Below, one piece after another: positions 33,411-63,300 of a stretch of 64,000 bases of DNA; position 1 is the first letter of the stretch; each line of letters opens with the position of its first letter. The notes under the pieces are model-generated. The model saw only the letters and a program-made list of their open reading frames with translations, was not told the DNA's origin and made no database searches. Source of the DNA: Acanthochromis polyacanthus (lineage: Eukaryota > Chordata > Actinopteri > Pomacentridae). Location: the NCBI RefSeq assembly GCF_021347895.1, contig NC_067124.1, positions 23,240,521 to 23,304,520 of the forward strand. Reading direction: 5' to 3'. Position numbers and translations under genes: made by a program.

Positions 33411-33503
33411 CTGATGACGTGTAAGTAAAACGGGTGCAAGATCATAAAGTTTTGTTGAATATTAACAAAACTCAAATGGATTGCGACTACTGCTAATATA
33501 GCA

Positions 33504-35564: not shown

Positions 35565-35568
35565 TTAA

Positions 35569-35743: not shown

Positions 35744-35782
<39 letters not shown>

Positions 35783-37586: not shown

Positions 37587-40500
37587 ATGAGTCAGTCTGA
37601 GGAGAAAGATGTGGGAGTTCCACCTTCTATCACTTCTGTGGGTGGAGAACATGAAGGCAAGACGAAGCCTCACAGGTAAGATAAAGTTCCCCAGCTGTAC
37701 ATGACTGTTATCTGTGAGCTCATCTACGAAATCACTACACTCGCATTAGTTAGAGATCATTCAAAGACATTTTTGTCAAGAAAATTAGCAAAATTAACAG
37801 ATGTATGAGGATACTTAAAAAAGTTCTCGGCCTCACTAGAAAATGTCCCTGGAGAAAGACTGTCCTTTCATTATTTTTACATAGTCTCCTAATGCACTTA
37901 ATCCACTGATGTTCAAGCTTTGATATCCCTTCTTGGAAGAAGGTCACATCTTGAGCCCTCAGATACTCCTCAGCAGCACGTTTGACCTCATCAACACTCA
38001 GAAATGATTACCACACAAGTAGGATAGATAAATGTCAGATGTTGCCAGGCTGGATGAGTAAGGTGCATGGATTAACAGTTCAAAGCCACATTTGGCTGTT
38101 TCTGCCACCTGTACTGTGTGGATGATTGCATTGTTCTGCTTCCACAGCACAACATCTAGAAGCTTTGATGGCTTCAAATATTTCAGTTTCTGTGGACAGT
38201 GATGCAAGGCTTTATAGTATACAGTTATGCCTCTAAATGGAAGTTATCTCCCTTGTTGATGAACTTATTGAAGTACCCTTGTTCTGTTCAATTTGGAAGT
38301 CAGTTCTCTCCTATTGTGTTCTTATTTTTGTTACATTTTGACTGGAAATTATGTAAATGGTAAATGGTTGTATTTATATAGCGCTTTACATGATGCATCA
38401 CATTCACCCATTCACACACTGATGGCGGGCACTGCCATGCAAGGCGCTAACCACGACCCATCAGGAGCAATTAGGGGTTAGGTGTCTTGCTCAGGGACAC
38501 CTCGACATGAGCACAACGGGCCAGGGGGTCAAACCACAACCCTACGGTTGTGAGACGGCCACTCTACCCACTGAGCTATGCCGCCCCGTTATGTTTAGCC
38601 TTGTGCTACTGTTGAATTTGTTGTTTGCATTAATTGTTGTGACAGTGACTTTTTTGATGCTCTTTTGGCCAAGTCTCTCAAGAAACACAAATTTTGATCG
38701 AAAAAAACTCCTTAAATAATACAATTCACCAGAGCTCCTAAGGCGAAACAGTAGCATTAAGTCATCTTTGGCAGAAATGTACCTGAACATAAAAGTTTTG
38801 CAAAAAAAAAACCAAACAAACAAACAAAAAACCCTCTTCACTGAAGAGTGACCAGTCTGCGGCTTTCCCTCGTATTTTTAAGGGATGCAGTTACTCTTAT
38901 AACAACTATTATAACTTTGAAGGCAAATATTTATTCTAAAAGAAACTGTCACATGTGACAAGTTAAAGTGTCTGGCCTGTTTGTATCATCAGTTAACTTC
39001 CTTATGTCTCATAGATTTATCAGAGTTTTAGTAACTTTTAAAGTTCTCTCTTGCAATAAACTCTCTGTTAATACTACCACTACAAACATGGCTGAGCCTC
39101 AACTAAAGCCTCAACAATTTGTATGTATCAAATTACCAAATTTCCCCTTGTGAGACTAATAAAGGATATTCTATTCTATTCTATTCTGTTCTATTCTATT
39201 AATGTCAGGACCCATCAGCAGAAGTCAGACCCTCCTCTGCAAAGCTGTGTGTCCGTAATGAGTGACTCGTCTATGCTTCAACCTGTGGTTTTTAAACAAC
39301 AAAGTCCTCATTCAGAGGAAGTCGATATGCATACATTTTGTTTCTGTTTTCATTTCGTCTCCTGCTCTACATTTACCCCTCTTATTTCTCAAAAGTACGT
39401 AACAGAAACTCTAACACTAAGTATCTGCTATATATTATTTGTTACAGTACTGATCAGTAATTTACACCTTTCTCTTTTTCTCCCTTATTCCACAAAGACT
39501 CTGACCCTACTAATGTATTAAATGCTCATAAAATCTTGCTACTAGGAATAAACAACCAAACACTTGTTCTGTTAACCTCAGGACCTGGCAGCAGAAGTCA
39601 GGCTCTCCGCTGCCAAGCAGTGTGTCCATGAAGAGTGACTCATCTATGGCTCCACCTGTGGGTTTTAAACAGCAAAGTCCTCACTCAGAGTAAGTCAGTA
39701 TGCATGAACTTTGTTTCTGTTTTCATTTCTTCTCCTGTTCTAAGTTTATCTTTCTTATTCCTCAAAAGTACATAACAGAAACTCTAGCACTAAATATCTG
39801 CTATATTTTATTTGTTACAGTGCTGATCTGTAATTTCCACCTTCCTCTTATTCAACAAAGAATCCAACCCTACCATTGTATTAATCGCTCACAAAATCCT
39901 GCTATTTTACTAGAAAAAAAAACCAAACACTTTATCTGTTAATGTAAGGACCTGGCAGCAGAAGTCAGGCTCTCCACTGCCAAGCAGTTTGTCCATGAAG
40001 AGTGACTCTTCCATGTCTCCACCTGTGTCTTTTAACAACCCAGAGTAAGTCAGCAAACCTATTTACAGCACAAAATCCGTTTACACCACCCCTATAAATA
40101 TAATTTAAAATTATAGAAACAAGTTTTTAATGTGTTTTTTCTTTCTTCAGGCAATCCTCTTTTTCTGTCAGAACTGAGCATCAGATTTTAGGATACTCTT
40201 CTTCAAGTTTTGGATCTGCGGAAGGCGACCTGCCAATGGATTTACTTTTTGAATATGAACAGCCTGAAGTTTCAAAGTAAGCCAACAGAATATAGACATG
40301 AGGATTTTGTTAATGTACTGAAGATTAAAGATAGGTTAATTCATTAATCACTTAAAGATTTATTTTTTAGTGGAGGTGTCCAGATTCTAGATGTTCCATT
40401 ATTATTATCTGAGGTTAAGATTTGAAATTATCGTTACAAGGAAAAGATTTCTTTGCCTTCAAGTGTTTTTTTTCCATTGTGGCCCTTATCAAACCTTTTC

Positions 40501-43500
40501 AAATAGTGTGCTGCTTTTATTTCCTTTTCAAGCTTCTTCTAATTACTCTAATAATAATACAATTGCTAAATTTAATCCTTATTTAAGGATTAATTATCAG
40601 ACAAGCACAACCATGACATCAATAAAAAATAAGATATTCAAGACATCTCAGTGTGTTCCATGACATTTTGTCCTTTTGCAACAAATACATTGTGAACTAA
40701 AAAATAAAGTACAGTCACATCAGATTTTATAGGTCTTTTCTAGTTATTCAGTGCATTTAAAGACTAATATTTTTTGTTAAATATTTTTTTCTGTCGAGGC
40801 TGTATTATCTAGAAGGAGAAAAATTCCCCCGACGGATGCGTGCATCTGCATACCCTTCAATGGACGATGTATTTAAGGTGCGTGAAACCGAAAAACTTCT
40901 AATAATGACAAGTAACAGTTAAAAGTAAAGGAATGTCCACTATTCCTAAAACTGTGTAAGTGTCTGTGATAAGCAAAGAGAAAAAACACTATTATTTACG
41001 GGTGAACTGAAAGTAAATTTTTTAGCTTGATTTTAGGTTTAAAGTTAGATGTATAAAAGTTAAGAATTATATTCTTTTCTAGCGTCTTGAGCAGAAGATT
41101 GTTTCTTTTGTTCGGAACGAGCTGATGGGGTTCCAGAGAGTTCTAAGTCCAGGAGATCCAGAGAACTTAGAGAGACGAGATGAAGAGGAGGAGGAGGTTG
41201 ATGGTGAAGAGGAGGAAGAAAGGAGGAGCATCAGAGATGCATTTCTGAAGATCACACGCCATTTCCTGCAAAAAATGAACCAGAAGCAACTGGCTGACTA
41301 TCTGCAGAGCAGTAAGAGCCTTTAATAGATTCAGCAATAGTCAAAAAATGTAAACTGTAGATATACATACATGCATCAGAAAGGATTTCATGCAACATCT
41401 GCAAATTATTACCTGCATATGGAATGCTATTAAGTTGATAAAAAGAGTGGTGTAGTGAGTGGGGTTCATTCTGATTTACAGTTTGCAACAAAATAGGAAT
41501 GAATGTTTTGCACAGGAAGCACATGATGTCTGGAAGAAGCTGACTTGTGCATAGTAGAAATACAATAGTACAGTGTACAAATATGCTGCATCATTTGTGC
41601 AGTAACAGAAAATATGCTTTCACTGGGTGCAGATTCCCCAATGTCCAAAAATGTCCAGATCTTACTGAGCTTAATTGCTTTTTTGTATATAATTGGACCC
41701 TTTAATTCCCTTACTACTTGTAAGTGACAAAATTTCCATTGCAACATATATTATTATAGGACCATTATATTATTAACGCTACTTTTATTAAGTCGTATTA
41801 GAAATGATTTCATTAAATATTTCTGGGAGAGAGAGAACATCATTTTGTTTTCCTCAATATTACATGTCAGTTCTGGAACTACCGCATAACAGACAATTTC
41901 ATTTATCCCTCACAGACAATTTTTCACAAATTTATATGAAGAGTTCATTTGTAAAAACAGATATCTCCATAAATTTTCAGAAAGCTTATTTTTTAGTTGT
42001 TTACTTGAGATAATAAGAATAATAAAGATAATTTATTTTTTCTCTATTTTGTCATTTTCTACTGAGTCAAATCCACTCAACTTCAGTTTGATTGATATTC
42101 TCTCAAGTAAACAATAAAACAAAAAGTTTTCTGAAAATGTATAAAAATGGAGTTATCTGTTTTTGAAAATAAACTCTTCATATGGTTATTTATCCACTGT
42201 TCGATAAATACAAACCAGTTTGGAACTTCTGCTTCCCTGCTGACCACCATAGTTAAGAGTTAGACAACCTCCCTTACAGATATTGTTTTTGGAAATTTGT
42301 ACAGCCCAGTGTAACCCTCCAATATTTTCTTATGCATTCACTCAGAAACTCTTGGGGCCATGTGCCAGCGTCAACTGAAATCAAACCTGAAGAAGAAGTT
42401 TCAGTGTGTGTTTGAGGGAATCCCTAAAGCAGGACATCCAACCCTTCTGAATGAGATCTACACAGAGCTCTACATCACAGAGGGAGGAACTGTGGGGGTC
42501 AGCGATCAACACGAGATCAGACAGATTGAAACAGCGTCCAGGAAACCAGCTGCACCGGAAACAACAATCAGATGTGAAGACATCTTTAAACCCTCACCTG
42601 AAAGAGGTGAACCAATCAGAACAGTGATGACAAAGGGAGTGGCTGGCATCGGGAAAACCGTCTTAACGCAGAAGTTTGCTCTGGACTGGGCTGAAGGCAA
42701 AGGCAACCAGGACATCCAGTTTACATTTCCATTCACTTTCAGAGAGCTGAATCTGCTGAAGGAGAAACAGTTCAATTTAGTGAGCCTTGTTCATCACTTC
42801 TTTCCTGAAACCAAAGAAGCAGGAATCAGCAGATTTGAGGAATTCAAGGTGGTGTTCATCTTTGACGGTCTGGATGAGTGTCGTCTTCCTCTGGATTTCA
42901 ACAGCAACGAGATTCTGACTGATGTTACAGAGTCCACTTCAGTGGATGTGCTGCTGACAAACCTCATGAAGGGGAAGCTGCTTCCTTCTGCTCGCCTCTG
43001 GATAACCACAAGACCTGCAGCAGCCAATCAGATCCCTCCTGAGTGTGTTGACAGGGTGACAGAGGTCCGAGGGTTCAATGACGCACAGAAGGAAGAGTAC
43101 TTCAAGAAGAAATTCACAGAAGAAGAGAAGGCCCGCAGAATTATCTCCCACATCAAGAAACAAAACCTTTTCATCATGTGCCACATCCCAGTCTTCTGCT
43201 GGATCACTGCCACGGTTCTGGAGGAAACGATGAAAACCGGAGAGGGAGGAGAGCTGCCTAAGACTCTGACGGAGATGTACAGCCACAACCTGGTGGTTCA
43301 GGCCAAACTGAAGAATGTCAAATATGATGGAGCAGCTGAGACAGATCCACACTGGACTCCAGATACGATTAAGATGATTGAGTCTTTGGGAAAACTGGCT
43401 TTTGAGCAACTCCATAGAGGCAACCTGATCTTCTATGAATCCGACCTAAAAGAGTGTGGTATTGACATCAGAACGGCCTCGGTGTACTCAGGAGTGTTCA

Positions 43501-46500
43501 CGCAGATCTTCATAGAGGAGAGAGGACTGTACCAGGACAAGGTCTACTGTTTCGTTCATCTGAGCGTTCAGGAGTTTCTGGCTGCTTTTCATGTCCATCA
43601 GACATTCATCAACACTGGTGTCAATCTGATGACAGAGGAACAATCACCCTCCAGTTCTGCTTCACAGAGAGACAAAGCTGAACTCTTCTACCAGAGTGCT
43701 GTAGACAAGGCCCTACAGAGCCCAAATGGACACCTGGACCTGTTCCTTCGCTTCCTCCTGGGTCTTTCACTGCAAACCAATCAAAGTCTTCTAAAAGGTT
43801 TAATGACAGGAAGCAGCTCACTGAAGAATCAGGGAACAATCCAGTACATCAAGAAGAAGTTAAATGAGGACATGTCTCCTGAGAGGTGCATCAACCTATT
43901 TCACTGTCTGAGGGAGCTGAATGATAGTTCTCTAGTGGAGGAGATCCAGCAATTCCTGAGATCAGGAAGAATTCCCACAGATAAACTGTCTACTGCTCAA
44001 TGGTCAGCTTTGGTCTTCATCTTGTTATCTTCAGAAAAAGATCTGGATGAGTTTGACCTGAAGAAATATTCTGGTTCAGAGGAGGCTCTGCTGAGGCTGC
44101 TGCCTGTTGTCAAAGCCTCCACCAAAGCTGTGTAGGTTAAATCAAACTAAACAGGCCACAAAAATTTATAAATATCAAACTGGAAAAAAATCTTACAATT
44201 TCTGTTTGGTTGCTACTTCCTCTTTAGGCTGAGTTGTTGTAACCTGTCAGAGAGAAGCTGTGAAGCTCTGGCCTCAATTCTCCGTTCACCATCCTCCAGT
44301 CTGAATGACCTGGACCTGAGCAACAACGACCTGCAGGATGCTGGAGTAAAGCTGCTCTGCAAAGGGCTGCAGTGTCCACAATGTACGCTGGAAACTCTCA
44401 GGTGGGAAATCACAGATTAAAGATGACCCATTAAATCCTTCTTTATGCACAGGTTTATCAGAAAACAAATGTGTTCTACAAATTTTGTCATCAGCTGGTA
44501 CAATTATAATTAAAGAAATTTAAATTCTTGTGTTCCATGGAGGATTTATCAAAATAATGACTAATGCTAAGGTAAATTCAGCCAAATACTTCTATCTAGT
44601 TGGCTGTATGTGCAGATTGTAAAGATAAATATGCCCACTGTGCAGTGTTCATGTTGTCATTTTCTTAGCTGTCATTAATCAACCATCAAAATGAATTTCT
44701 GTGTGAAAGACAGAGGAAACAAATTTTTGATTTTGTAGGTTCAAGGACCTAAAATTTAACTCTCTGTGTTACATTACCTATGCTGTGGAGACATAATCTG
44801 TTTACACAATTACAGCTTCCCTCCAATGAATAATTAAATAATGAGGTGCCTATTAGCTATACAATGCATCTAACAGTCACTGTCTCCCCTTGGTTGCTTT
44901 TTAATACTGAGTCACAGTAATTCAGTTTTTATGACAAGAATTAACCTCCAACAAAGACTCCTTCATGTCAAAGTGAAAATTGATTTATACAAAATATCTG
45001 CTGATTGAAAATAATAATAAAACTTTAGCATGAAGGCTTGGTTTAAGGTTAGTCAGTGTTGGGGCTGGTAGCTATAGTTATGGTTGGGGTACATCTCCAG
45101 GGAATTAATGTAAATCAATCTAATGTCCTCTGAAATGATGAAAACACAACTGTTTATGTTTGTCTGCAGGCTCTCAGGGTGTCTGATCACAGAGGAAGGC
45201 TGCGGCTCTTTGGTTTCAACTCTGACATCCAACCCGTCCCGTCTGAGAGAGCTGGACCTCAGCTACAATCATCTAGGAGACTCAGCAGCAACGCTGTTTG
45301 CAACCTGTAGACTGGAAACCCTAAAGTATGGGCAAACAAGTCTGTTTGGCTTTGGTTGAGGGAATGTGGGGAAGTTAGTTGGAGCCAGTGGTTCAAATTG
45401 ACAAAGAGTTGATTTTATAAGATTAAGGCTGCCTTTGTTTTTCTTGTCAATAATTACACTAATAATATGTAGTATTAAACATGAGCTATTTGATTCTATT
45501 GGAAACACTGAAGTTGCAGAACATCAGCTTTATGGCAGATTAAACCATAAAGAATCATGTTTTTGTAGATTCAGTCTAATAAATACAAGTAATACACAGT
45601 TTGTTGATATATAATATCACTTGTGGCAATAGCTTTGTGGAAATGTAGTGCTAGTTTGACATGCTGGTAATGATGTCACCTGATTGTGTTCTCATGCTTG
45701 AACTTGTTTTTTCTCTAGGTTAGACCCTGGTGGAAAGCAGATGTTGAAATCTGGTCTCAGAAAATGTAAGTTTATTTTGCATTGAGTTCAGTGCTTCAAG
45801 TTATCTGTCTGCAATCATGGTTTTCTGACTGAAGTGGCATCTCTTTGTTGCTTCCTGATTCTTCATTTGTTTTGTTGTCTGGCACTATCTGTCCATCAGA
45901 GCTCACATCTACAATGTGACATTAACCTCAGAGATTACATGATTTCACAAAACCCGCTTCTCCTTTCCCATGAACATGGTATCTCTTTAATGCCTTGAAT
46001 GCATTTCTTCAAATTTGGCTCACAATTGTATGAAAAAATTCAGACTTTTCAAATATCTAGAATTAGCACTTTCGTCTTGCAACTAGAAGAACCCAGGTTC
46101 ACGTCCCGGCCTTCCTGGGATCTTTCTGCATGGAGTTTGCATGTTCTCCCTGTACATGCATTAGTTTTCTCTGGATACTCCGGCTTCCTCCCACAGTCTA
46201 AAAATATGCTGAGGTTAATTGGTAACTCTAAATTGTTCATAGGTGGGAATTTGAGTGTGATCGTCTGTCTGTATATGTAGCCCTGTGACAGACTGGTGAC
46301 CTGTCTAGGGTGTCCCATGCCTTTACCCCAAGTCAGCTGAGATAGACTCCAGCCCCCCTACAGCACTAAAGAGGATTAAGCGGTGTATAGATAATGGATG
46401 GATGAATGGAAATATTTAGAATACTTTAAAAATACTTTCTGTGACAATGAAGGTCCATAGGGTCTGTGTGATGTAAATTGTGTCATCTCCACAAACCCGA

Positions 46501-47363: not shown

Positions 47364-48729
47364 AAAGAGAGGTAGAAACTGCAGAAACTCCAGCAGAAAA
47401 TTTCCTTTTTCAGGACAGAATCTGTTAGCCAGTTTGGACCACTGAAATACATGCCGTTTGCTCCTGATCCATTCTATTCATTTAATACTCAGTGAAAGGC
47501 CACACACCGTCAAGCTTGAGCTCGTTCACTCCTGGAGGCTGCCCAGTACGACCCCAGTCTGACCTACTGCCCACTGACCAGTACCAGCTGAACAGCTGAG
47601 ATCAAGGATCTTTCTCATAATCGCCAAAATAATGGCATTCATCAGAGACAGAAACTGTAAAATGAGAAAGAAGCATCAGATTTTTAGCTTTCAGATGGTC
47701 TTTGAATATGTTGTGTGGGACTTATGGTTCCATCAGGAACAATAATCATGTCTTAAAAGCTTAAAATTGTGACATTTCATCAGTGTCACTTTATTCTAGC
47801 TATTCTATTCAGAAATTTGCTGAAAATAAAATTCAGCTTTTTATGAACTCTTGCTTTTTGGGCCACACATTTGACCACTTGGTTAATCTGTTTTTCACTC
47901 TACTGGCATGAATTTGTTATTTCGGTCCAATAGGTGCAAAGATTTTAATGAAGGTGATGATATAAGTCTGTTTTAGATGTAATGTTACACATGTGATTTT
48001 ACATGTAAATGGCTGATTGTAGACACAGTTGTGATTTGTTAGGCAAAGCTTATCTTACCAACCATCAGGTGACAAAAAATAAAATAAAAACAAAAATCAG
48101 TGACTTGTCAGGTGAATTGCAGGTTGTGTTTTTACAGAGCAGAGAGGAAGGACAAAAGAGATTGAGAGGAAAATAAAACTTACTTGATCAATAAAATCAG
48201 TAAGTCACACAGTAAAGGATGCTGTTAGTAAGTTGTTGGACGATAAATTCAGCATGGTGAAATATCTCCGAGTTGATGTGGAATCACCGTTTTCTTTCAG
48301 TGCTGGTAATTCCTTTGGACACTTTAAAAATGTTGAACATATTGATTCCAGATTCTTCAATTTTTGTAAAACAGTTTAAATGAAAAAATGATTTTTGGGG
48401 TCTTTTTTGTGATTTATGACATTATAATAAAATTATACAACACAAATGACTATTTTGAGTTCTCTCTACTGCTAGTCACAGTTGTGCTGTTTCCACAGAG
48501 GTGCAGGATATTGCAGTTAAAAATTAACCCACAAGGAGTAAAAATGTGACATGAGCAAAAAACACCCAGAAACTGCCAGAGGGAGGAAGGATAAATTCAT
48601 ATTTACCAGCAAATTTGAGAATGTATTAATTTACTTTGACCTCCAACTTAGACTTAATTATATTTTTCTTAAACCATGTTTTTTTTTTTTTTTTAAAAAT
48701 CCATTTACTGCAGCCATTCTTTGGTTATA
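47364..48729. other. NLR copy 1 3' UTR and spacer
   Basis: The AATAAA at 47825-47830 is a candidate poly(A) signal about 460 bp past the stop. The rest is AT-rich, with a poly-T run near 48678 on the plus strand and no coding signal. Confidence 0.5.
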
Positions 48730-48987
48730 ATAGACAATTAAAAATACTCTTGATCGCTGTTGATATTTCTTTCTTTCCAAAGAAGATATTATGTGTGTTT
48801 TTCCACAACATTCAGCACACATTTTATCTTTCCTCTTGCAAACACCATGCAATGCTTCCAGCCTACAGTTCAACAATTTCATTAAGTAAGCACTTTTATC
48901 CAAAGCGACGTACATCTGAGAGTAGATACAACCTAAGCAAAGATCCAGCCAGGAGAAATTAAGCAGGATAAGAGCCATAAAGCTAAC

Positions 48988-49014
48988 CGTTGTCGGCAGG
49001 ACTCGAACTTGCGC
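48988..49014 (-). pseudogene. tRNA-Ser(AGA), 3' part of a split gene
   Basis: On the minus strand this is the T arm with B-box-like GTTCGAGTCC and the 3' acceptor strand CGACAAC. It pairs with the 5' strand GTTGTTG found 3.3 kb away at 52307-52313. The break falls at the base of the variable arm. Confidence 0.8.
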
Positions 49015-49079
49015 GGCAGCCGACAATTCTTTAGCTCAACGGCCCTAAACCGTTTCCCATTCATTCTCTATGGTAGTGC

Positions 49080-49227
49080 TAAAACACTACTATATTTTCC
49101 GCCACGAGAATGCGTCTGTTCGCAGTGCCATTTGTGCGCATGCTCATGCTTCCCCTCGCTCAGTTTGAAACTGCCCGGCAACCGGAGAGACAGACTGCGT
49201 ACAGTTTTCCTTGGTCTGAGTTAAACG
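49080..49227 (+). promoter_or_regulatory. promoter-like region and 5' exon of the inserted gene
   Basis: Contains TGCGCATGCTCA (49135-49146), close to an NRF1 site. The sequence GCCCGGCAACCGG is reminiscent of an RFX X-box half. A strong splice donor AAACG/GTAAGT ends the exon at 49227. It is CpG-rich compared with its surroundings. Confidence 0.45.
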
Positions 49228-50119
49228 GTAAGTTTTATGACAAAACGAGTGATGACACAAACTATGAATGAATGAAGGTTTTTGGATATTTCTGCCCGCT
49301 TTATAGTGTGGCTTGTGTTTTTGTCGAAGCTAAATGAGTATGTTTAGTACGATGTTGAAGTAACTGTTAACTAACGTGACTGTTGGACACACATGAGCCG
49401 GTTTACGTTTATAACAATTCATTTATATCCTCGAGTTATGATGAAAGAACGTCATGTCCGTTCATCCTGTTAACACTGAACATCGTGTTGGCTTTATCCT
49501 CAATGTTATGATATAATAACATGATATAATGACAAATCCATCCGTCCGTTTTGCTCCAGCGCCTTGAATACGTTCAAGACAAAATGACTGTTCAATAAAA
49601 CGGTTGTGTTTTTTAAGCATGTTGTGTATTAAGACATATTACCAGTATGTGTGCTTTATATTACTCGAAAATGTGCAGATAACTGTAGGGACGTGGCTGT
49701 AGTGGAATTTTACTGAAACTGCTCAAACCGGTTTCTGTGACAGCCTCTTCTGAACCACTTCACACATCAGTGTCACATGATGGCCCCTATTGTTCAGAGT
49801 TTCAGCCACAGGGCTCCACTGATTGGTGACAGAACTGACAGCAAAAACATGCAGACAGGCAGGCACTTAAAGCAGTAGTGCATAGACTCTTCTATGTTCC
49901 TCTACACGTCAACATATGTTATAGAAAGCATCTTTGTCTGTAGCACGCATACAGGGCTGGAAGTCATTTCTTACAAATACTCAAATTACTGTAATTATGT
50001 AGATTTTTGGGATACTTGTGCTTTTATGAGTAGATTTCCAAGTCTGTACTCTTACTTGTACTTAAGTATTCATTATGGCATGTGGGGAAAAAAGACTTGT
50101 TTTGTATCTTATCAGTTAT

Positions 50120-50200
50120 TAATGATTAATTGATGTTAAATTTCTCCTTTGTGAGATTAATAAAGTCTATCTTATCTTATCTTATCTTATCTTAGTGTTT
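50120..50200 (+). repeat. LINE tail with (CTTAT)n
   Basis: CTCCTTTGTGAGATTAATAAAG followed by CTTAT repeats, a retrotransposon 3' end nested in the intron of the inserted gene. Confidence 0.6.
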
Positions 50201-50612
50201 GAACTACTGTCAAAGCAAAATACGGCAAATGTAGAGCCGTAGCCTGGAGAGGTGACGGTGACATCACTGGTTAAAAGGAACTAATACTCTGAGGAGTTTC
50301 TTTTAAAGAATACTCTGTATTTTTCTTTCACCATTTTCAAACACCACTACTTTTACATGTGAATGAGTCATATTTTAGCAATGTAACAGTACTGATTTTC
50401 ACTCCTCTTATCCACCACTGCATAGACTGACTCTTTTATTTCCTTTATAACTTCAAGTACCACTCCCAAACTACAGACAGAACCAGGTAAACATTTGAAG
50501 AAAAAAATACTCTAGCATGAACAGCAGTCCCAAAATTGAATCCTATTAATTTCTATAAATATCTTTCTTAGAAATATGATGAGACGAACACAAGATGTGA
50601 CAATTCTATTTA

Positions 50613-51092
50613 TTGTATGTATATATTATACTTTTCTTATCTTCTGGGATCCACATTTCCGTCACCTCTGCCCCTGCTGTCCTCGTCATCTGCAACCCGC
50701 ACTGGACCGGTGGGAGGGTGTTTGTGCTCGACCACAAGCACTGGCCAGCTCCCATGAAAAAGACGATAGACGACCTCCTCAATAAACACGGCGGGCAAAA
50801 GGACATGCTGAAGCTGGTGGACCAGGAGTATGCTGCTCTAGTTCACAGCAGCTGTAAGGACCCGAACAGCACGCTCCATCCCACCACTAAGCTGCACAGA
50901 ACACGATATATGAAAGACCTGAGCAAGCTGCTGAACACCAGCTCCTCTTTGAACACCAGCCCAGAGAAGGTGGAAGAAAGGCAGCGGCTTTGGCACTCTC
51001 TGACAGAGGGCAGTGAGACGACCAGCGTGCCAGTTGTTGCCATGCCGGCTGCTGTTTTTAACCCCCCCCTCCACCTTTTCAGACACCTCTAA
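50613..51092 (+). CDS. unrecognised protein of the tRNA-resident insertion, N-terminal frame
   Basis: I do not recognise this protein. A possible exon starts after TTTCTTAG at 50573. The frame is open from 50613 and is clearly protein-like from about 50680: a CNPHWTGG motif, then VFVLDHKHWPAPMKK, a Lys/Leu-rich helical stretch, and a conserved-looking RLWHSLTEGSETTSVPVV segment near the end. It closes shortly after a run of Cs at 51061-51069. A one-base slip in that run would join it to the next frame, so this is probably one broken or misread gene. No transposase catalytic motif is visible to me. Confidence 0.5.
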   Translation: MYVYIILFLSSGIHISVTSAPAVLVICNPHWTGGRVFVLDHKHWPAPMKKTIDDLLNKHGGQKDMLKLVDQEYAALVHSSCKDPNSTLHPTTKLHRTRYMKDLSKLLNTSSSLNTSPEKVEERQRLWHSLTEGSETTSVPVVAMPAAVFNPPLHLFRHL

Positions 51093-51127
51093 CGCAGGAC
51101 TCAACAGAGGAAATCGTTGAAAGTATC

Positions 51128-51716
51128 ATGACCAAGCAGCAGCAGCAGCAGCAGCAACCACCACAGCAGCAGCCGGGGAAAAGAACCCAGACGAAGAAGC
51201 ACCTGTCCTGTGGCCAGTCTAAGTCCAGATATGAATATGATGGTTCTTCCGTCCATTTCTTCTACCAACAGGGCCCGGTCAGGTACTTCTACTGTTCCAC
51301 TAAGGTTTTTAAAACATATGGTGCTGAAGGTCTGACAGATGCAAAAATGGACTTCAAAGACTTTGTACAAACAGAATTCTTTCAGCGTGAACTGGAGGCA
51401 ACAAAACAAAGGGTGGAGGAGAGAGGACAGCAAAAAAGAAAAAGGACTGACTCCCAGCCGACAGGGACACGCAAACTGGAGCTAAAGCAGGGCCCAGACA
51501 GTCCACACATACACGCTGGCTTCCCTGGAGTGGCAGGGAAGTACATCTACTGCCCAGCAAAAGTCTTTTCTTTCTACAAAGATAAGGGTATGGACAAGGA
51601 GATGACCTGGACAGAGTTCCAGAAGTCTCCTTTCTTTGAAGTGGAAAGGCAGAGGTGGGAGGCTGAAAAAAGAAAAATGAGTGAGAGGGTGGGCTGGTGG
51701 CTTATCATGTGCGTAC

Positions 51717-51774
<58 letters not shown>

Positions 51775-51793
51775 TGCTCTTTGTTCAATTTGA
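51128..51793 (+). CDS. unrecognised protein of the insertion, C-terminal frame with internal repeat
   Basis: The frame is open upstream of this ATG as far as the C run, which supports continuity with the previous frame. It has a poly-Gln/Pro stretch (residues 4-16). Two copies of a roughly 45-residue module follow: PVRYFYCSTKVFKTYG at about residues 58-73 and GKYIYCPAKVFSFYKDKG at about 154-171. Each is followed by an acidic/aromatic F-FF segment and Lys/Arg-rich helices. Between them is a basic stretch (QKRKRTD). The end runs into a TA microsatellite, so the natural C-terminus is probably lost. Function is unknown; the basic stretches suggest a nuclear or nucleic-acid-binding role, as inference only. 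Confidence 0.55.
51719..51769. repeat. (TA)n microsatellite
   Basis: About 25 uninterrupted TA units at the 3' end of the open frame. Confidence 0.95.
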
Positions 51794-51834
51794 TTTGGCA
51801 TGTTTGTGAAACATTTGAACTGTTGTTCTGTGTG

Positions 51835-51840
51835 AATAAA
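51835..51840 (+). terminator. polyadenylation signal of the inserted gene
   Basis: AATAAA about 65 bp beyond the TA run, in the sense direction, followed by a GT-rich stretch. Confidence 0.55.
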
Positions 51841-52260
51841 GAACACATTTCATTCAGTTCGGTCTGCAGGTCTCATTAATATGTGTGTATAATGTACAGT
51901 AATCAGTAGAATATTGTAATTGAAACTTTGAGGAAAATTACCAAGTTAGTCACTTAAAGAAACATTCCCTTATCTTTGATTTGTTTTCAATTTAGTTCTT
52001 CATTTCTGACATGTAAGTAGTACTAAGAAAAAAGACAAATAATGGAAAAATACAATAATGAATATACCAGAGAATCTCTCTGTAGTTCATGCACAAAAAA
52101 AGAATAGAAAGAGTTTTAAACTGATTTAATCCTCCCCCTGTGATTTCAATCATTTTTCCAATCACACAATCCTTATGAGACCCAGCACTGGGGACAGGGT
52201 CAGGAAAGCTGCAATTTCATTGGCTGTCACTGAGTGCCAACTATAAACGACTGGCCGCCG

Positions 52261-52313
52261 CGAGACCCCAATGGATTTCTAATCCATCGCCTTAACCGCT
52301 CGGCCACAACAAC
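52261..52313 (-). pseudogene. tRNA-Ser(AGA), 5' part of a split gene
   Basis: On the minus strand: acceptor GTTGTTG, intact A box TGGCCGAGCGG, anticodon arm GATGGATTAGAAATCCATT (AGA) and the start of the variable arm GGGGTCTCG. It is better preserved than the copy at 33.3 kb, so the gene looked normal before it was interrupted. Confidence 0.8.
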
Positions 52314-52406
52314 CTGATGGCTTATGAGCAAAACGGGTCCAAGATCATGAAGTTTTGTTGAATATTAACAAAACTCACATGGATTGCGACTACTGCTAAT
52401 ATGACA

Positions 52407-53099
52407 CAGGGTTTCTGCAGGGCATTAAAAATGTAGGCCTTGAATATCATTAAAAATCATTGAATTTGATTCTCAGTGCTATTAAAAATTCCTTCCGCAG
52501 TTTTCAAGAAAAATATTTGACAATAATAATATAATATAATCATTTGCCTGACAGACATCAAAATAAGTGCCACACGCGACCAGTCTGAACTGTGGCGTCA
52601 CTGGTACAGTTGTCTGCTGTAGTGTTTTCTTCTGTGTCGTTTTGTTGTTTTTATTTATCTGGACCCTGTGTCTGTAATAAAGTTTGATGATGATGATGAT
52701 ATAATGATATATAAACTCTAGACTGCGATTCCTCAGATATTTGCATCTGCGTAAACATGCCGAAGCGTTGCGATAAATATTCTGACCGGTCGAGTACAAC
52801 TGCCAAAAACTGCATGTTGTTAAAGTGGCCAACAGACTGGACCAGGTGGAGGAGACCTGGGAAATGGGGAAATTCCAGCAAAAATGGCTAGAAAACATGG
52901 ATTTCAGAGACTGATTACAGTCCGTGGGTGGTCAGAGGTGGTTTCCGGATTCAGAAATAATGAAATGTAGGGACAGTTTTCATATAAAAATCATCTTTTT
53001 TAAAAAACCAAACGTGTAATTTGTTGAGTTCACGGTTGTGGCATTAAAATGGCATTAAATAGCACTGAATTTGACTGGTTGATTTCTGCAGAAACCCTG
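52407..53099 (+). mobile_element. hAT-like DNA transposon remnant (long form)
   Basis: Termini CAGGGTTTCTGCAG and CTGCAGAAACCCTG. The interior keeps a fragment coding QKWLENMDFRD, which resembles the N-terminus of fish hAT-type transposases. A (GAT)n run is present at about 52688. The same element in copy 1 is deleted internally. Confidence 0.7.
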
Positions 53100-53470
53100 T
53101 GGCACTGTGCATATTTACATTAACTGCAGTAACTACATACAGCATGTAACATCCTGGTTCCTGCTTATGAGCTTACTGCTGCTCCCATAGTTTTTAATGA
53201 TAGCAGAACATAAGTATCACCGTTAAAAGCAAGAACATTAAACGTCTGTTTGTCATGTGCCTTCTGCAGTAACAGGATGATGTCTAATTTGCCATATACC
53301 TGCTGTGAAAATTATTTTCCATAATGCATATGCAATGTGTTTTCCCTTGTTACAGTCTCAGTTTATTGACACCATGAGGCAGTTTCCCTTATGTATTTAT
53401 GCACTGATATACAGTATCTTTTTATACCTTGATGTTTTTATGATAGAATGGAAACTGAAACAAAAGAAAA

Positions 53471-53543
53471 TGTTATGACCCTAGCTCGTTATGTGGGTAA
53501 AGGTGTAACATAATTTGCCCAGATGGAATTCGGCGTTTAAATG

Positions 53544-53580
<37 letters not shown>

Positions 53581-54108
53581 GGTACAATAATAAACAAAAG
53601 AAGAGGCAGCAATAGATAAATGTAAAAATAAAATACAAACGGCAACAAAAGAGACTCTAAACTAGAGTTATATCAACAGAAATATCCTAATCTAAATCCT
53701 AACACTAATGGTGTGTGACACAACCAAACGAAAAACTAGTGCCTCCAAGATTAGTTTCCACAAGAGTTAACAAAATACTAAAGCCTAAACAGAGTTCAAC
53801 AGTACAACAGGTTTCCAGATCGCGAACAAAGTCTTACTAATCGAAGGCACTGGAGCAGGGCTGGTTACAGCGACAAGCTCGTCATCCTCAGGCTGACTGG
53901 CGGCTTTATACTCGTCCACCACGGCACCGGATTGGTTGATTCTCATGCCGCAGCTGTCCTTGATTACTCCAGCTCCAGGTGAAACGAGTTGTCATCAGCC
54001 TGGGAGCGACAGGACATGCGCACTCACATACACACAGCACACAACACACACAGCACACAAGCACTCAAAGAAGGAGGAGAAACCCCAAATACGGCAACGC
54101 CCAAAACA
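53471..54108 (+). mobile_element. solo LTR
   Basis: A 638-bp segment starting TGTTATGACC and ending CCAAAACA (TG...CA), flanked by a perfect 5-bp duplication gaaaa (53466-53470, 54109-54113). Copy 1 lacks it at the matching site near 34500. It has a TA run and a CA-rich 3' portion and no coding frame, as expected after recombination between two LTRs. Family not determined. Confidence 0.8.
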
Positions 54109-54114
54109 GAAAAC

Positions 54115-55140
54115 ATGAGGCAGATGAACTCCCACAAAGACAGCTGGTCTGGCTGCATTCTTAATCGGTGTGGCACAGAGGAGCTGGGCAGTATTCTGTT
54201 TTATGCGACGCAGTTTGCATCGACAAAAAAGGTACTGTAAACTGTTTGTACTTGAGTCTTGTCACTAAAATGTATTAGAGGTGTATAAGAAGAGACAGAG
54301 AAATTGTGTGTGTTAAGTTATTGTTAAACATTCAGTGAAGGCTTTACAGTTTGTTGTTTCATGTACAAGTTATGTTGCTTGTTTTACATTATTCTTCCTA
54401 GTGGCAGTCACGAAAATATCAGTGTAACACTTAAATGACATGTAAATCTATCAATAAGCTGTAGGACTTTCTGTTGAATGAATTAAGTGAAATATGTGAT
54501 TTTAATCAGTGTGAGAGGATCTGTGTAAGTTCATTAGAGATCATGTAGCCTCATACTCTACGTGTGGTGTTTGTAACAGGTTAGACCGGTTACGTCTGAT
54601 CAAAGTGCTCCATGTTTCTTCAATTGCCTCCACGGGGCAAATCAAGTCATGATTTTCATGTAATTGAATTGAACTCAGGTGAAATTGTCTGACTGGATAA
54701 AGAATATTTAGCTCCCTTTTCTGTAAGTGTTTCTTTTCAGATAAAACGTCTCTGTGACTTGATTTGGGTGTGACAGCAGAATCAGGTGATCATACTGAGG
54801 GAACAGTATGAACTTATGAGCTGACGTTGTCCATTCTGTCTTTATAGCACAAATTGGTTACACATAAAGTTTTAAGTGTGTTGATCTTCAGTTGGTGTCA
54901 TTTTTTCTTACCAAAGAAAATAGTAAGTTTGATTTGCTGTACTTTTATATTCTGCACTTTAATATTGGTTGTAGTCTGTAATTTCCATTCAGGACCGTGA
55001 CAAAAATGCAGGAACTTTGGTTATAAATTAATATCCCATCTGAGACACACTACAAGCTGTGGTTTAGGTTCGGCCAAAGTGCCTTGAGAGCAAAATAAAG
55101 TCAAGTTAATTATCCACTGGACGCTTTGATCCTTAAGCTT
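54115..55140 (+). other. upstream block of NLR copy 2
   Basis: Matches 34515-35564. The possible 5' untranslated exon with donor AAAAAAG/GTACTG is preserved (to 54232). No gene is seen. Confidence 0.35.
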
Positions 55141-55274
55141 AAAAATATTCTATTCAAATGTTGGAAACAGCAGCAGTTTGGGACAAAGAGGAATAAAGAT
55201 ATATCAAGTTGTTGACAGTTCTTGTTAGTTGAATCAATTCATTGATGGGTTCGATCTCACTAAAGTAACTAAGT

Positions 55275-57045
55275 TGTTATGAAAATACTGTATTTGGTGA
55301 CTGAATGTTCGTATTCACTGTATTACTGTGTGATGTGTGCTGAAAGAGGAACAAGGACACAAGCTGGTCGAACAGGAATTTGAAAGAAAAGAAACCAGTC
55401 CTAATTGCCTGCCTGTAGTGACGCAGAGATAACACATACCAAGATGGGCGTAACCGCCATCTCAGAAGTGAGGGGGACAAATTTTTCAGAGCGATTTATC
55501 ATTCTCTTACATTTAATTGCACCGTCCTTAGTGGCTAAAGAACCACATAATCCCTAACAGCCACAGTACAATACCAGGGGACCAACTGGGCTAGTTCTTT
55601 AAACTATAAAGTATAAAACTTTAAACTATAAAATCTAAAGTTTTAGTGGCCAAACTCTAGTTGAGTTGACAACAATGTCCCTTGAACATCTACTGGACGA
55701 GTAGCCAAAGATGCCAAACACTGAACATGAAATGATCAGTACTGCCTGGTTTCTCCCTGCAATAGATATCTTATTCTCAGGAAGTTATAATCTCTCCTTA
55801 CCTGTAAAGACCCTACATCCTTGTCCCTGCTGCTGGCCTCTGATCCATCTCCTCCCTGACTCTGCTCTTTCTGTTATGGCAATAAACATAAAAAATGTGG
55901 TAAGAAAAATTCTGAAATAGCATTAGGAAGAGTAAAAATTGCAGTAGAATTTAACCTCAAAATCACTTTAACCCATAGATACATATTTTTTTCTCAGCCA
56001 CTTATATTTTTTTTTCACCTCTGCAGACCCTGCATGGTCAACATTACTGCTGGCCGCTGCCTCTGGTCCATCTCCTGCCTGACTCTGCTCTTTGTTTTGG
56101 AAATAATCATTTAAAAATCTGAAAATCAAAATTCTGAGATAGAATTAGAAAGAGAAGCAGTAAAAATAGTTGTAAATTTAACCACTTTTATACCATAGAT
56201 GGCCTATTCTTTTCTCTCCTCCCTGACTCTCCTCTTTTGGGACCAAAAGACTTAAATACATGGAGAGCAATTGTGAGCACATCTTCTGCCCAGAAATGAA
56301 AGAGGACTGGGTTTATTCCAAGAATAAACTAATTAGCAAGTAATGTAACAGAGGCAACCACATTTAAATTATTGTTAACTAGCTTAACATATTGATATAT
56401 TGCCACGTTTTACCTTGTCATCATTTAGCTAACAAGTCTAACATTGTTTGCATCCAACAAGGTCACACAACTTACACGGTTTGTTTGGAAAAACTGTGTA
56501 AAGTTTTTGCTTCTTGCTGGCTCTGGCTGGTTTGCTAAACATTACTCCAGACGCACGTTCAGCACTGCTCAGCACAGCAGCACGTCTCCTGTGGAACACC
56601 TGCGTCATGGTGCATTCACAGACGGCTCGGGAAAACACGTTACTGGATGCTAAAAACGGGTTTAGCTGTTGTAACGGCTGAAAAAAGTGCGGCGGACAGA
56701 TGTGGAAAGTGCGGGGGACATGTCCCACGCGTACCCCGCGTCCGTTACGCCCATGAAGACGGGGACAAAATGCGAATCACACACTTATTGTGGTGTGGCC
56801 CCCTCTAGTGGATGTGGCTATAAACAACGGCATAGAGTGTTTATGCCAGCGGCCGGCCCTGCATACCAAGATGTGTAACTCATGTTCATGTGTCTGGATA
56901 AAAGTTGTGCTATTTTTGTCCTTCATCAGTCACTTGTTCAGACTGTGCTCTGGTCTGCTGAGTCCTTGTGCAAGTAAACTTTGCTCTGACTTGAGAGATG
57001 ACTGAGTATTAATTTGGAAATATCAGGACTCCACTGAAGAATTTT
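55275..57045 (-). mobile_element. copy-2-specific insertion with exon-like tandem repeats
   Basis: Absent from copy 1, where the flanks join near 36025. It holds two diverged copies of a roughly 215-bp unit (about 55800-56020 and 56020-56225), each with CCATCTCCTNCCTGACTCTGCTCTTT, and a partial third copy. A GC-rich stretch at 56560-56770 looks like an element promoter on the minus strand. Minus-strand frames are short and Glu/Ala/Gly-rich, like the linker exons of some hAT transposase genes. Termini and family remain unclear. Confidence 0.45.
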
Positions 57046-57397
57046 CCTGACACCAGTGGTATTTTCTTAAAATAAGAAATGACTTGATCATTTACACTGA
57101 TGAACAGGAATTTGCATCAGGTAGAAAAACTGATTGACACAGACATTTGTTTATGTGGACAAATCTTGTGAAAGCACAGCACTGGGTTGGATCAACCAAG
57201 TTCAGTCAGATGTACACAAGATTATGAATAAATAACTCCCCCGTGACTGTAGAATCCAACCCAGCTCTCAGTACCCCGCATCACTTGGTTTCTGAGATCC
57301 TGCTCAAAATCTTTGATCTATAATTTTTTTTTTTGCTATGAATGGAGCCTTTTTAACACTCAGTTTGGTTTATCTGTGTAAAGGTGTATCTTCTATC

Positions 57398-60300
57398 ATG
57401 AGTCAGTCTGAGGAGAAAGATGTGGGAGTTCCACCTTCTAACACCACTCTGGGTGGAGATCAAGAAGGCAAGAAGAAGCCTCACAGGTAAGATAAAGTTC
57501 ACCAGCTGTGCATGACTGTTATCTGTGAGCTCATCTGCGAAATCACTACACTCTCATTCAAAGACATTTATGTCAAGAAAATGAGCATAACAAACAGATG
57601 TATGAGGAAACTTTAAAAAGTTCTCAGCCTTGCCAGAAAATGTCCCTGGAGAAAGACTGTTCTTGCATTACTTTTTACATAGTCTCCTTTAACTTTAATG
57701 CACTGGTCCACTGACGTTCAAGCTTTGATATCCCTTTGTGGAAGAAGGTCACATCTTGAGCCCCCAGATGCTCCTCAGCAGCACGTATGACCTCATCAAC
57801 ACTCTGAAAATGATTACCACACAAGTAGGATAGATAAATGTCAGATGTTGCCAGGTTGGATGAGGTGCATGGACAGTTCGAAGCTACATCTGGCTGCTTC
57901 TGCCACCTGTACTGTGTGGATGATTGCATTGTTCTGCTGCAGCAGCACACCAGCTAGAAGCTTTGATGGCTTCAAACATTTCAGTTTCTGTGGACAGTGA
58001 TGTAAGGCTTTATAGTATACAGCCTTCCCTCATAATGGGAGTTAACTCCCTTGCCAGTGAGGCTGAAAACTTTTTAAAGTACCCTTGTGTTAAATTTGGA
58101 AGTCAGTTCTCTCCTATTGTGTTCGTACTTTTGTCACATTTTGACCAGAAATTATGTTTATTTTTGTGCTACCGTTGACTTTGTTGTTTCCATTGTGACT
58201 TTTTTCGATGCTCTCTTGGCCAAGTGTCTCCAGAAGCACAGATTTTGATCTCAAAAACTCCTTAAATAATGCAATTTACCAGAGTTCCTAAGGCAAAACA
58301 ACAGCATTAAGTCATCTTACAGGTACAGAAATGGACCTGAATATGAAACTTTTGCAAAAAAAAAACAAAAACAAAAAACCCTCTTCACTGAACAGTAACC
58401 AGTCTGTGGTTTTCCCATGTGTTTTTAAGGGACACAATTATTATTAAGAGTAAGTCAACAAAACTTTAAGGCAAATATTTATTCTGAAGAAAAACAAATT
58501 GTCACATGTAACAAGTTAAAGTGTCTGCCCTGTTTGTATCATCAGTTAACTTCCCTATGTCACAGATTTATCAGAGTATCAGAGTAACTTTTTAAATTCT
58601 CTCTTACAATAAATTCTCTGTTAATACTACCACTACAAACATGATTGAGCCTCGACTTAAACAGTCTGTATGAATCAGATGCAGATAAAATCCTGCCTAT
58701 TTTGCATAGAAAAAACAACACACACCTGCAAAGTTCCCCCTGTGAGACTAAAAAAGTCTATTCTATTCTATTCTATTCTATTCTATTCTATTGCTGTCAG
58801 GACCCGTCGGCAGAAGTCAGACTCTTTTCCACAAAGCAGTGTGTCCATGATGAGTGACTCGTCTATGCTTCAACCTGTGGTTTTTAAACAGCAAAGTCAT
58901 CACTCAGAGTAAGTCAATATGCATAAACTTTGTTTCTATTTTCATTTCTTCTCCTGCTCTAAGTTTACTCATTTTATTTCTCGAAAGTACATAACAAAAA
59001 CTCTAACACTATCTATAAATTATTTGTTACAGTGCTGATCTGTAGTCTCTTATTCAACAAAGACTCTGACCCTGGGAATATATTAAATGCTCATAAAATC
59101 CTGCTATTTCACTAGGAAAAAACAATCAAACACTTATTCTGTTAATGGCAGGACCAAGCAGCAGAAGTCAGGCTCTCTGCTGTCAAGCAGTGTGTCCATG
59201 AAGAGTGATTCGTCTATGGCTCCACCTGTGGCTTTTCAACAGTCAGGTTCTTATCCAGAGTAAGTCAAGGAAGCACTTAAAAGCATGGATTCCTCTAAAG
59301 GAGAGTAACTATAATTAGGAATGCAACATGCTGCTATTTTCCTGATCAATTCATCTGTTGATTATTTTCTGAATTATTTGATTTCTAAAATGCCAGAAAA
59401 TGGTAAAATACAGTTGCTGATTAATTTGTCATCATCAATTAACTGATTATGTAACTATTAACTCTAATATACATCATTATTGCTACCACACTGTGGGACT
59501 GAAACAGTCAGTTTGCAATGTTGCCTAAGGTGGAAGAGTGTCAAAAAGCTGTAATTAAAGAAAAACCTGTCTTTCTGTTTATGCTCAGCAGGAAGTTTGA
59601 TGCTGTTGAGCACAAACAGCCTGCTCCATGGCCCATCAGTGCATCCATGAAGAGGGACTCTTCCATGTCTCCACCTGAGTCTTTTAAACAACGTGGTTCT
59701 GATTCAGAGTAAGTCAGCAAACCTGTTTAGAGCACAGAATCATTTTACAGAGGAGCACCTATAAATGCAGTTTTAAATTACAGAAATAATCAAGTTTTCA
59801 AGTTAAAAATTTCTTTCTTCAGTCAATCCTCTTTTTCTGTCAGAACCGAGCATCAGATTTTAGGATACTCTTCTTCAAGTTTTGGATCTGCGGAAGGCGA
59901 CCTGCCAATGGATTTACTTTTTGAATATGAACAGCCTGAAGTTTCAAAGTAAGCCAACAGAATATAGACATGAGGATTTTGTTAATGTACTGAAGATTAA
60001 AGATAGGTTAATTCATTAATCACTTACAGATTTATTTTTTAGTAGAGGTGTCCAGATTCTTAGATGTTCCATTATTATTTTCTGAGGTTAAGATTTGGAA
60101 TTATTGTTACAAGGAAAAGATTTCTTTGCCTTCAGATGGTGTTTGTTTCATTGTGGCCCTTATCAAACCTTTTCAAATAGTGCGCTGCTTTTATTTCCTT
60201 TTCAAGCTTCTTCTAATCACTTTAATAAAACAATTGCGAAATTTAATCCTGATTTAAGGATTAATTATCAGACAAGCACAACCATGACATCAATAAAAAA

Positions 60301-63300
60301 TAAGATATTCAAGACATCTCAGTGTGTTCCATGACATTTTGTCCTTTTGCAACAAATACATTGTGAACTAAAAAATAAAGTACAGTCACATCAGATTTTA
60401 TAGGTCTTTTCTAGTTATTCAGTGCATTTAAAGACTAATATTTTTTGTTAAATATTTTTTTCTGTCGAGGCTGTATTATCTAGAAGGAGAAAAGTTCCCC
60501 CGACGGATGCGTGCATCTGCATACTCTTCAATGGACGATGTATTTAAGGTGCGTAAAACCGAAAATCTTCTAATAATGACAAGTAACAGTTAAAAGTAAA
60601 GGGATGTCCACTATTCCTAAAACTGTGTAAGTGTCTGTGACAAGCAAAGAGAAAAAAACACTATTATTTACGGGTGAACTGAAAGTAAATTTTTTAGCTT
60701 GATTTTAGGTTTAAAGTTAGATGTATAAAGTGAAGAATTATATTCTTTTCTAGCGTCTTGAGCAGACGATTGTTTCTTTTGTTCGGAACGAGCTGATGGG
60801 GTTCCAGAGAGTTCTAAGTCCAGGAGATCCAGAGAACTTAGAGAGACGAGATGAAGAGGAGGAGGAGGTTGATGGTGAAGAGGAGGAAGAAAGGAGGAGC
60901 ATCAGAGATGCATTTCTGAAGATCACACGCCATTTCCTGCAAAAAATGAACCAGAAGCAACTGGCTGACTATCTGCAGAGCAGTAAGAGCCTTTAATAGA
61001 TTCAGCAATAGTCAAAAAATGTAAACTGTAGATATACATACATGCATCAGAAAGGATTTCATGCAACATCTGCAAATTATTACCTGCATATGCAATGCTA
61101 TTAAGCTGATAAAAGGAGTGGTGTAATGAGTGGGGTTCATTCTGATTTACAGTTTGCAACAAAATAGGAATGAGTGTTTTGCACAGGAAGCACATGATGT
61201 CTGGAAGAAGCTGACTTGTGCATAGTAGAAATACAATAGTACAGTGTACAAATATGCTGCATCATTTGTGCAGTAACAGAAAATATGCTTTCACTGGGTG
61301 CAGATTCCCCAATGTCCAAAAATGTCCAGATCTTACTGAGCTTAATTGCTTTTTTGTATATAATTGGACCCTTTAATTCCCTTACTACCTGCACGTGACA
61401 AAATTTCCATTGCGACATATATTATTATAGGACCATTATATTATGAACACTACTTTTATTAAGTCGTATTAGAAATGATTTCATTAAATATTTCTGGGAG
61501 AGAGAGAACATCATTTTGTTTTCCTCAATATTACATGTCAGTTCTGGAACTACCTCATAACAGACAATTTCATTTATCCCTCACAGACAGTTTTTCACAA
61601 ATTTATATGAAGAGTTTATTTGTAAAAACAGATATCTCCATAAATTTTCAGAAAGCTTATTTTTTAGTTGTTTACTTGAGATAATAAGAATAATAAAGAT
61701 AATTTATTTTTTCTCTATTTTGTCATTTTCTACTGAGTCAAATCCACTCAACTTCAGTTTGATTGATATTATCTCAAGTAAACAATAAAACAAAAAGTTT
61801 TCTGAAAATGTATAAAAATGGAGTTATCTGTTTTTGAAAATAAACTCTTCATATGGTTATTTATCCACTGTTTGATAAATACAAACCAGTTTGGAACTTC
61901 TGCTTCCCTGCTGACCACCATAGTTAAGAGTTAGATAACCTCCCTTACAGATATTGTTTTTGGAAATTTGTACAGCCCAGTGTAACCCTCCAATATTTTC
62001 TTATGCATTCACTCAGAAACTCTTGGGGCCATGTGCCAGCGTCAACTGAAATCAAACCTGAAGAAGAAGTTTCAGTGTGTGTTTGAGGGAATCCCTAAAG
62101 CAGGACATCCAACCCTTCTGAATGAGATCTACACAGAGCTCTACATCACAGAGGGAGGAACTGTGGAGGTCAGCGATCAACACGAGATCAGACAGATTGA
62201 AACAGCATCCAGGAAACCAGCTGCACCGGAAACAACAATCAGATGTGAAGACATCTTTAAACCCTCACCTGAAAGAGGGGAACCAATCAGAACAGTGATG
62301 ACAAAGGGAGTGGCTGGCATCGGGAAAACCGTCTTAACGCAGAAGTTTGCTCTGGACTGGGCTGAAGGCAAAGCCAACCAGGACATCCAGTTTACATTTC
62401 CATTCACTTTCAGAGAGCTGAATCTGCTGAAGGAGAAACAGTTCAGTTTAGTGAGTCTTGTTCATCACTTCTTTCCTGAAACCAAAGAAGCAGGAATCAG
62501 CAGATTTGAGGAATTCAAGGTGGTGTTCATCTTTGACGGTCTGGATGAGTGTCGTCTTCCTCTGGATTTCAACAGCAACGAGATTCTGACTGATGTTACA
62601 GAGTCCACTTCAGTGGATGTGCTGCTGACAAACCTCATGAAGGGGAAGCTGCTTCCTTCTGCTCGCCTCTGGATAACCACAAGACCTGCAGCAGCCAATC
62701 AGATCCCTCCTGAGTGTGTTGACAGGGTGACAGAGGTCCGAGGGTTCAATGACGCACAGAAGGAAGAGTACTTCAAGAAGAAATTCACAGAAGAAGATAA
62801 GGCCCGCAGAATTATCTCCCACATCAAGAAACAAAACCTTTTCATCATGTGCCACATCCCAGTCTTCTGCTGGATCACTGCCATAGTTCTGGAGGAAACG
62901 ATGAAAACCGGAGAGGGAGGAGAGCTGCCTAAGACTCTGACGGAGATGTACAGCCACAACCTGGTGGTTCAGGCCAAACTAAAGAATGTCAAATATGATG
63001 GAGCAGCTGAGACAGATCCACACTGGACTCCAGATACGATTAAGATGATTGCGTCTTTGGGGAAACTGGCTTTTGAGCAACTCCATAGAGGCAACCTGAT
63101 CTTCTATGAATCCGACCTAAAAGAGTGTGATATTGACATCAGAACAGCATCGGTGTACTCAGGAGTGTTCACGCAGATCTTCATAGAGGAGAGAGGACTG
63201 TACCAGGACAAGGTCTACTGTTTCGTTCATCTGAGCGTTCAGGAGTTTCTGGCTGCTTTTCATGTCCATCAGACATTCATCAACACTGGTGTCAATCTGA

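Follow-up and report, generated by a model that had tools for sequence, protein, structure and literature searches.

We studied a 64,000-nucleotide stretch of the Acanthochromis polyacanthus genome (contig NC_067124.1; hereafter the window, numbered from its first letter), in which a serine transfer RNA (tRNA-Ser) gene is split by a segment of about 3.25 kb. The insert, at 49014-52256 on the plus strand, is a member of a repeat family, and it is very probably a Dada transposon of the tD/tV type, an old and non-autonomous copy with an internal deletion, that landed off-target in the tRNA-Ser gene. An initial annotation of the window, made from its letters alone, had pointed to the split gene and had left the nature of the insert between a new element seeking RNA genes and a known type such as Dada.

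Self-BLAST of the window paired 33065-33352 with 48726-49014 (93.1% identity) and 33350-33528 with 52256-52431 (87.2%). These two pairings show that the paralogous stretch is continuous at 33 kb and about 3.24 kb longer at 48 kb. ARAGORN called no tRNA in 48900-52400 as it stands; with the flanks rejoined without the insert, it called tRNA-Ser(aga) on the minus strand in all 15 junction choices. By self-comparison and these calls, the 3' part of the gene (T arm and acceptor strand) lies at 48988-49013 and the 5' part (acceptor strand to variable arm) at 52263-52313, both on the minus strand, and the insertion point falls between the variable arm and the T arm. The split and its position were thus correctly described in the initial annotation, which had also named 33326-33410 as the unsplit form. 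This paralogue, on the minus strand, is indeed unsplit, but it is degenerate, since ARAGORN found no gene in 33200-33500, and it serves here as an empty-site reference. An Rfam match at 52225-52313 (30.7 bits, threshold 29), in which element sequence takes the place of the T arm, was considered as a new tRNA formed at the junction and rejected; in our view it consists of the 5' half with some fortuitous base pairing.

Copies elsewhere in the genome fix both ends of the insert, which therefore spans 3,243 bp. The left end at 49014 (CGGCAGCC...) is common to copies L032, L033 and L036, and GCCGCG (52257-52262) comes directly after the right end at 52256 (...GACTGGCC). As the element starts with CGG, the position of the left edge is uncertain by at most three bases. 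A 126-base right-end query found 12 genomic places, and the element stops at GACTGGCC in every one of them; a 73-base query across the left junction found five places in the 957-Mb genome, the window included, and the other four matches begin at the element's first bases or further inside. All these match counts are lower bounds. As for terminal inverted repeats, the best local match between the end 150 bases of the insert was 13 bp long and non-terminal. By eye, the first bases of the element (49014-49029) contain GCCGACAA, an inverted match to TTGTCGGC of the adjoining tRNA-Ser half, possibly by chance.

The family has a full-length form of 7,733 bp, present at L006 (with L010; contig C17) and at L007 (contig C3). 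These two copies differ by 0 mismatches and one gap across 7,713 aligned bases, and their near-identity suggests very recent movement. Both encode P0074, a protein of 1,154 residues annotated as LOC110959929 of A. polyacanthus, whose matches fall in separate exons, with introns present. P0074 carries the motifs D352, D419 (D-D distance 67), D476xxH479 and E636, the last being our own assignment as catalytic residue, and a four-cysteine finger (C161, C165, C197 and C200). Conservation was taken from an alignment of 30 relatives: D352, D419, D476, H479 and E636 were each at least 90% conserved, C161 was invariant and the other three cysteines reached at least 90%. Counting five motifs among 120 listed relatives, which include many fragments, yielded 78, 62, 47, 92 and 35; this tally was set aside in favour of the alignment. 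Part of the transposase core matched Pfam DUF6729 (E 7.6e-20), on which a literature search found no papers. The core had 184 relatives at E <=1e-5, from which those 120 were listed, and the C-terminal domain had 73, the family being spread across ray-finned fishes. Pfam gave no family above cut-off for pieces of the C-terminal domain and three relatives, and a scan of viral contigs found no relative.

Compared with its parent, the window copy is an internal deletion form. Its 5' part (49014-50451) matches L007 at 1835-3276 and its 3' part (50444-52256) matches L007 from 7785, with identities over shared sites of 93.9% and 95.7%, respectively; about 4.5 kb of the parent is missing, coding for approximately the first 790 residues of P0074 and including the aspartate-aspartate-glutamate (DDE) core. 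The two parts meet at an 8-bp microhomology (50444-50451; TTTATGAC in relatives, TTTATAAC here), and the same junction occurs at L008 and L024. It coincides with the ATG that opens the N-terminal reading frame of the parent, and this frame runs on in phase into MTSSTTPKLQTEPG of the transposase; the continuation of that N-terminal frame (FRKGPLGYL, FGKYKGKSFRWLLEND) occurs near the N-terminus of several relatives. L024 retains the ATG, the splice signals and an open C-terminal exon of 351 codons. In the window copy the ATG has become ATA and the acceptor AG has become GG, and the exon remnant (approximately 50662-51680) has indels of 10, 2, 3 and 15 bases, some of them frame-shifting, and has lost CRFC, one CxxC pair. 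The exon, splice donor, open frames and poly(A) signal that the initial annotation ascribed to the insert are outer portions of a larger gene, that of the transposase, and its open frame is the C-terminal domain, broken by indels. The ratio of non-synonymous to synonymous substitution rates (dN/dS) of this exon ranged from 0.36 to 0.87 in 21 pairs, and against L007 it was 0.43 for L024 and 0.63 for the window copy, values that do not show selection on the deletion form.

The target sites of three copies could be compared in detail. The L006 insertion is antisense, in the 3' strand of a tRNA-Asp anticodon stem, with CCCGCG on both sides as a 6-bp duplication; when one CCCGCG is kept, the joined flanks are a tRNA-Asp(gtc). 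For L007, an empty unit of the same tandem array reads ...CCTGATGA[GCTATAC]GGGCACCC and the filled site ...CCTGATGA<element>[CCCGCG]GGGCACCC; because the two differ in this way, seven native bases were lost and CCCGCG stands in their place, without duplication. The same comparison at the window site gives ...CCTGCG[CAGGG]AGACCCC for the empty paralogue, against ...CTTGCG<element>[GCCGCG]AGACCCC where the insert is present. Here about five native tRNA-Ser bases were replaced by the hexamer at 52257-52262 (plus strand), one base off the CCCGCG of other right ends, and this replacement bears out the initial remark that no clean target duplication could be defined. Replacement of target bases has been noted before, with the speculation that old flanks travel with the element, in PMC8869645.

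At the 12 right ends, the six bases after the element are CCCGCG in four (L012, L013, L020 and L022) and one step from it in three (GCCGCG in the window, CCCGTG at L015 and CCGCG, a C short, at L021). Half of the right flanks we take, by eye, to belong to tRNA genes (Ser in the window, Asp at L012 and Gly at L021) or to tRNA-like sequence (L013, L014 and L022). Among these types the programs called only Ser and Asp, and Rfam at a loose threshold gave two tRNA matches in the 12 loci, at L011 and L021. A tRNA-Asp(gtc) gene also lies at 2625-2699 of L021, about 1 kb from the copy whose right flank looks like tRNA-Gly, and a tRNA-like repeat piece at 38553-38587 of the window shares 97% identity with the right flank of L022 across 35 bases.

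A 126-base query from the parent's left end gave 30 matches, and among the 20 that were fetched the intact left end was present in four. An antisense B box with at most one mismatch lies within 100 bases of three of these four, and such a B box was found at 0 of seven rows without an intact left end (all have three or four mismatches) and in 22 of 5000 random stretches. Nine further rows, at eight distinct places because L051 is the place of L041, represent a sister family whose left end differs (CGTATAGTTAAGCTTAAC...; L039-L051). Six of the eight have the B box at one mismatch or fewer, one has two mismatches and one has three; the flanks of L048 and L050 are almost identical, and the six cases are therefore not all independent. 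The intact left ends of the sister family adjoin 3' halves of tRNA or tRNA-like genes, presumably Val and Asp. At their truncated left boundaries, L026 and L043, one from each family, have non-element sequence in common, which might be a further repeat or an alternative 5' end used by both.

Dada elements are defined by a DDE triad with DxxH, an N-terminal four-cysteine (CCCC) finger and a C-terminal CCHC finger, and they have introns, lengths of 4.7-11 kb, no terminal inverted repeats and 6-7-bp target duplications, as described in PMC3706591. The parent element shows the DDE triad with DxxH, the N-terminal finger, the length, the introns and the lack of terminal inverted repeats; its finger spacing is close to that of the published cysteines (C389, C394, C429 and C432; PMC3706591). 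A 6-7-bp duplication in a small-RNA gene was found at L006 and is missing from the window copy and L007, and L006 also has the antisense position in the anticodon arm that marks Dada-tD/tV in tRNA-Asp and tRNA-Val. A tree of 42 relatives pairs P0074 with a Siganus protein as its sister (support 100/100), within a clade of 14 (95/91) that includes Thunnus, Anabas, Cyclopterus and Gymnodraco. In Table 1 of PMC8869645, the eleventh column (printed 'th', which we read as tD) places Dada in Scombridae, Cyclopteridae and Anabantidae, and Dada-tV is given for ploughfish, GyAc being taken as Gymnodraco acuticeps. Fishes with reported tD/tV elements thus occur in the P0074 clade, though not via the sequences used in that paper. 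By published description, the parent element fits the Dada-tD/tV lineage. The main text of PMC8869645 has no mention of Acanthochromis or Pomacentridae, and a search of the open literature for Dada in damselfishes (Acanthochromis, Pomacentridae) found no account among the papers listed. Identity of the insert with Dada-tS was rejected, as the Dada-tS site is at nucleotides 8-13 and the window insertion is at the variable arm/T arm.

Several observations weigh against this assignment. The fit to the lineage was judged from published descriptions; if E636 is catalytic, its distance from D419 is 217, versus the published 176; the two CxxC...H...C motifs at the C-terminus of P0074 are spaced unlike the published CCHC finger; and the AlphaFold model was too poor to be usable (mean predicted local distance difference test score, pLDDT, 45.6). 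As to the sites, the right-end hexamer is unlike CCCGCG in five of the 12 cases (L014 and L016-L019), six of the 12 right flanks are unrecognisable as tRNA, the left boundary of the tRNA-Gly copy (L030) showed no tRNA by eye, and the fourth intact left end (L008/L034) adjoins an inverted piece of the family's coding exon. Nine of the 12 copies found by their right end have no left end within 10 kb, which fits old, eroded copies and could also reflect incomplete insertion. As for the deletion form, the first 138 bases are missing at L024 and the right end is missing at L008, and later duplication could have brought the same junction to the three loci.

We regard it as very unlikely that the element belongs to another DDE superfamily with DxxH (such as P, hAT, MuDR or Kolobok) and meets tRNA genes by coincidence. 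Such an origin could be argued from the use of descriptions in recognising Dada and from Pfam, which gives only DUF6729; however, introns, four-cysteine finger, length, 6-bp duplication and the antisense site in a tRNA-Asp anticodon stem all match published Dada, and the sister family of the same genome likewise adjoins tRNA 3' halves. The Dada lead of the initial annotation has thus held up. What did not was its idea of a new element seeking tRNA-Ser at a fixed base, with many copies breaking that gene alike. The window insertion itself would speak for a family specific to the variable-arm/T-arm junction, and its site matches neither tRNA region reported for Dada in PMC8869645, which gives two. 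Yet the window copy is the only one in tRNA-Ser among the 12 right ends and four intact left ends, and we consider such a family highly improbable: the other copies lie elsewhere, an outcome named beforehand as refuting, although many of their sites are other tRNA or tRNA-like genes. We therefore class tRNA-Ser as off-target for the family studied here.

An assembly or segmental-duplication artefact without any transposition seems barely credible as the source of the split. The region is tandemly duplicated (33065-44329 versus 48726-64000), which might have favoured it, but each breakpoint coincides with an element end also seen at other loci, and the empty site is preserved in the unsplit paralogue. 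The repeated occurrence of both ends makes an assembly join unlikely as well.

Returning to an off-target Dada insertion, the following mechanism can be proposed. The transposase of intact copies, with its DDE and DxxH residues, would most likely excise the element and paste it at GC-rich sequence of tRNA-type genes, typically antisense in the anticodon stem. At tRNA-Asp a 6-bp CCCGCG duplication would form, and at other sites the native bases lying between the cuts would give way to the carried CCCGCG. Mobilisation in trans by the transposase of full-length copies is the most likely origin of the deletion form's spread, and the occurrence of one junction at three loci is consistent with this. 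The window copy would have landed at the variable-arm/T-arm junction of tRNA-Ser, losing about five native bases and gaining a tRNA-Asp-like hexamer at its right end. The sense strand of the tRNA-Ser carries, as inferred from the flanks, GGTCTCCCCGCG, which resembles GGTCTCCCGCG of the antisense tRNA-Asp target, a likeness that, in this one case, may explain the off-target choice in the opposite orientation. A broader proposal remains tentative and somewhat doubtful: that off-target insertions paste CCCGCG, a hexamer retained from an old tRNA-Asp flank and moving as one unit with the element, for 5-7 native bases without duplication and that the deletion form, reusing the N-terminal start codon, expresses a C-terminal-domain repressor.

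Other features of the window include an intact tRNA-Pro(cgg) gene at 7209-7282 and the tandem segmental duplication mentioned above, whose far end is 97% identical over 4.4 kb and whose other in-register matches of at least 250 bases are 79-93% identical.

The finding is very probably a Dada-type insertion, and it adds a damselfish host. The near-identical full-length pair, which points to recent movement, and the recurrent deletion form are further additions, and the L007 site, known both empty and filled, with element and hexamer in place of seven native bases, makes the published speculation on replacement directly testable. If the replacement reading is true, every off-target insertion would alter several bases in the tRNA or tRNA-like gene that it hits. 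Target-specific DNA transposons are also of interest for directed-insertion tools.

Internal deletions that leave a DNA-binding-type domain are known from KP-type derivatives of the P element. The deletion form described here resembles them in keeping such a domain and, at some loci, a usable start codon, whereas the domain retained is C-terminal and not N-terminal, and the window copy is no longer intact. Dada-U6_DR and Dada-U6N1_DR (Kojima and Jurka 2013, PMC3706591) share with the P0074 family the DDE triad with DxxH (D-D 68 versus 67 here), the four-cysteine finger, introns, a parent of 8-9 kb and internally deleted derivatives at target sites; they differ in target gene, in D-E distance (176 in Dada-U6_DR) and in the spacing of the C-terminal finger. 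Dada-tS, as described in PMC8869645, is also located in a tRNA-Ser gene, although it inserts at nucleotides 8-13 (TGGCCG). The closest likeness is to Dada-tD/tV (Kojima 2022, PMC8869645): insertion antisense in the tRNA-Asp anticodon arm, CGCG-rich flanks, replacement of flanking bases, near relatives from Thunnus, Cyclopterus and Anabas, and a relaxed specificity, which there extends over tRNA-Asp, Val and Gly and, in medaka, a site outside tRNA genes. Relative to the elements of that paper, the family described here adds a new host family, an off-target copy at the variable arm/T arm of a tRNA-Ser, a deletion form shared by three loci and a base-exact empty site with replacement in the absence of duplication.

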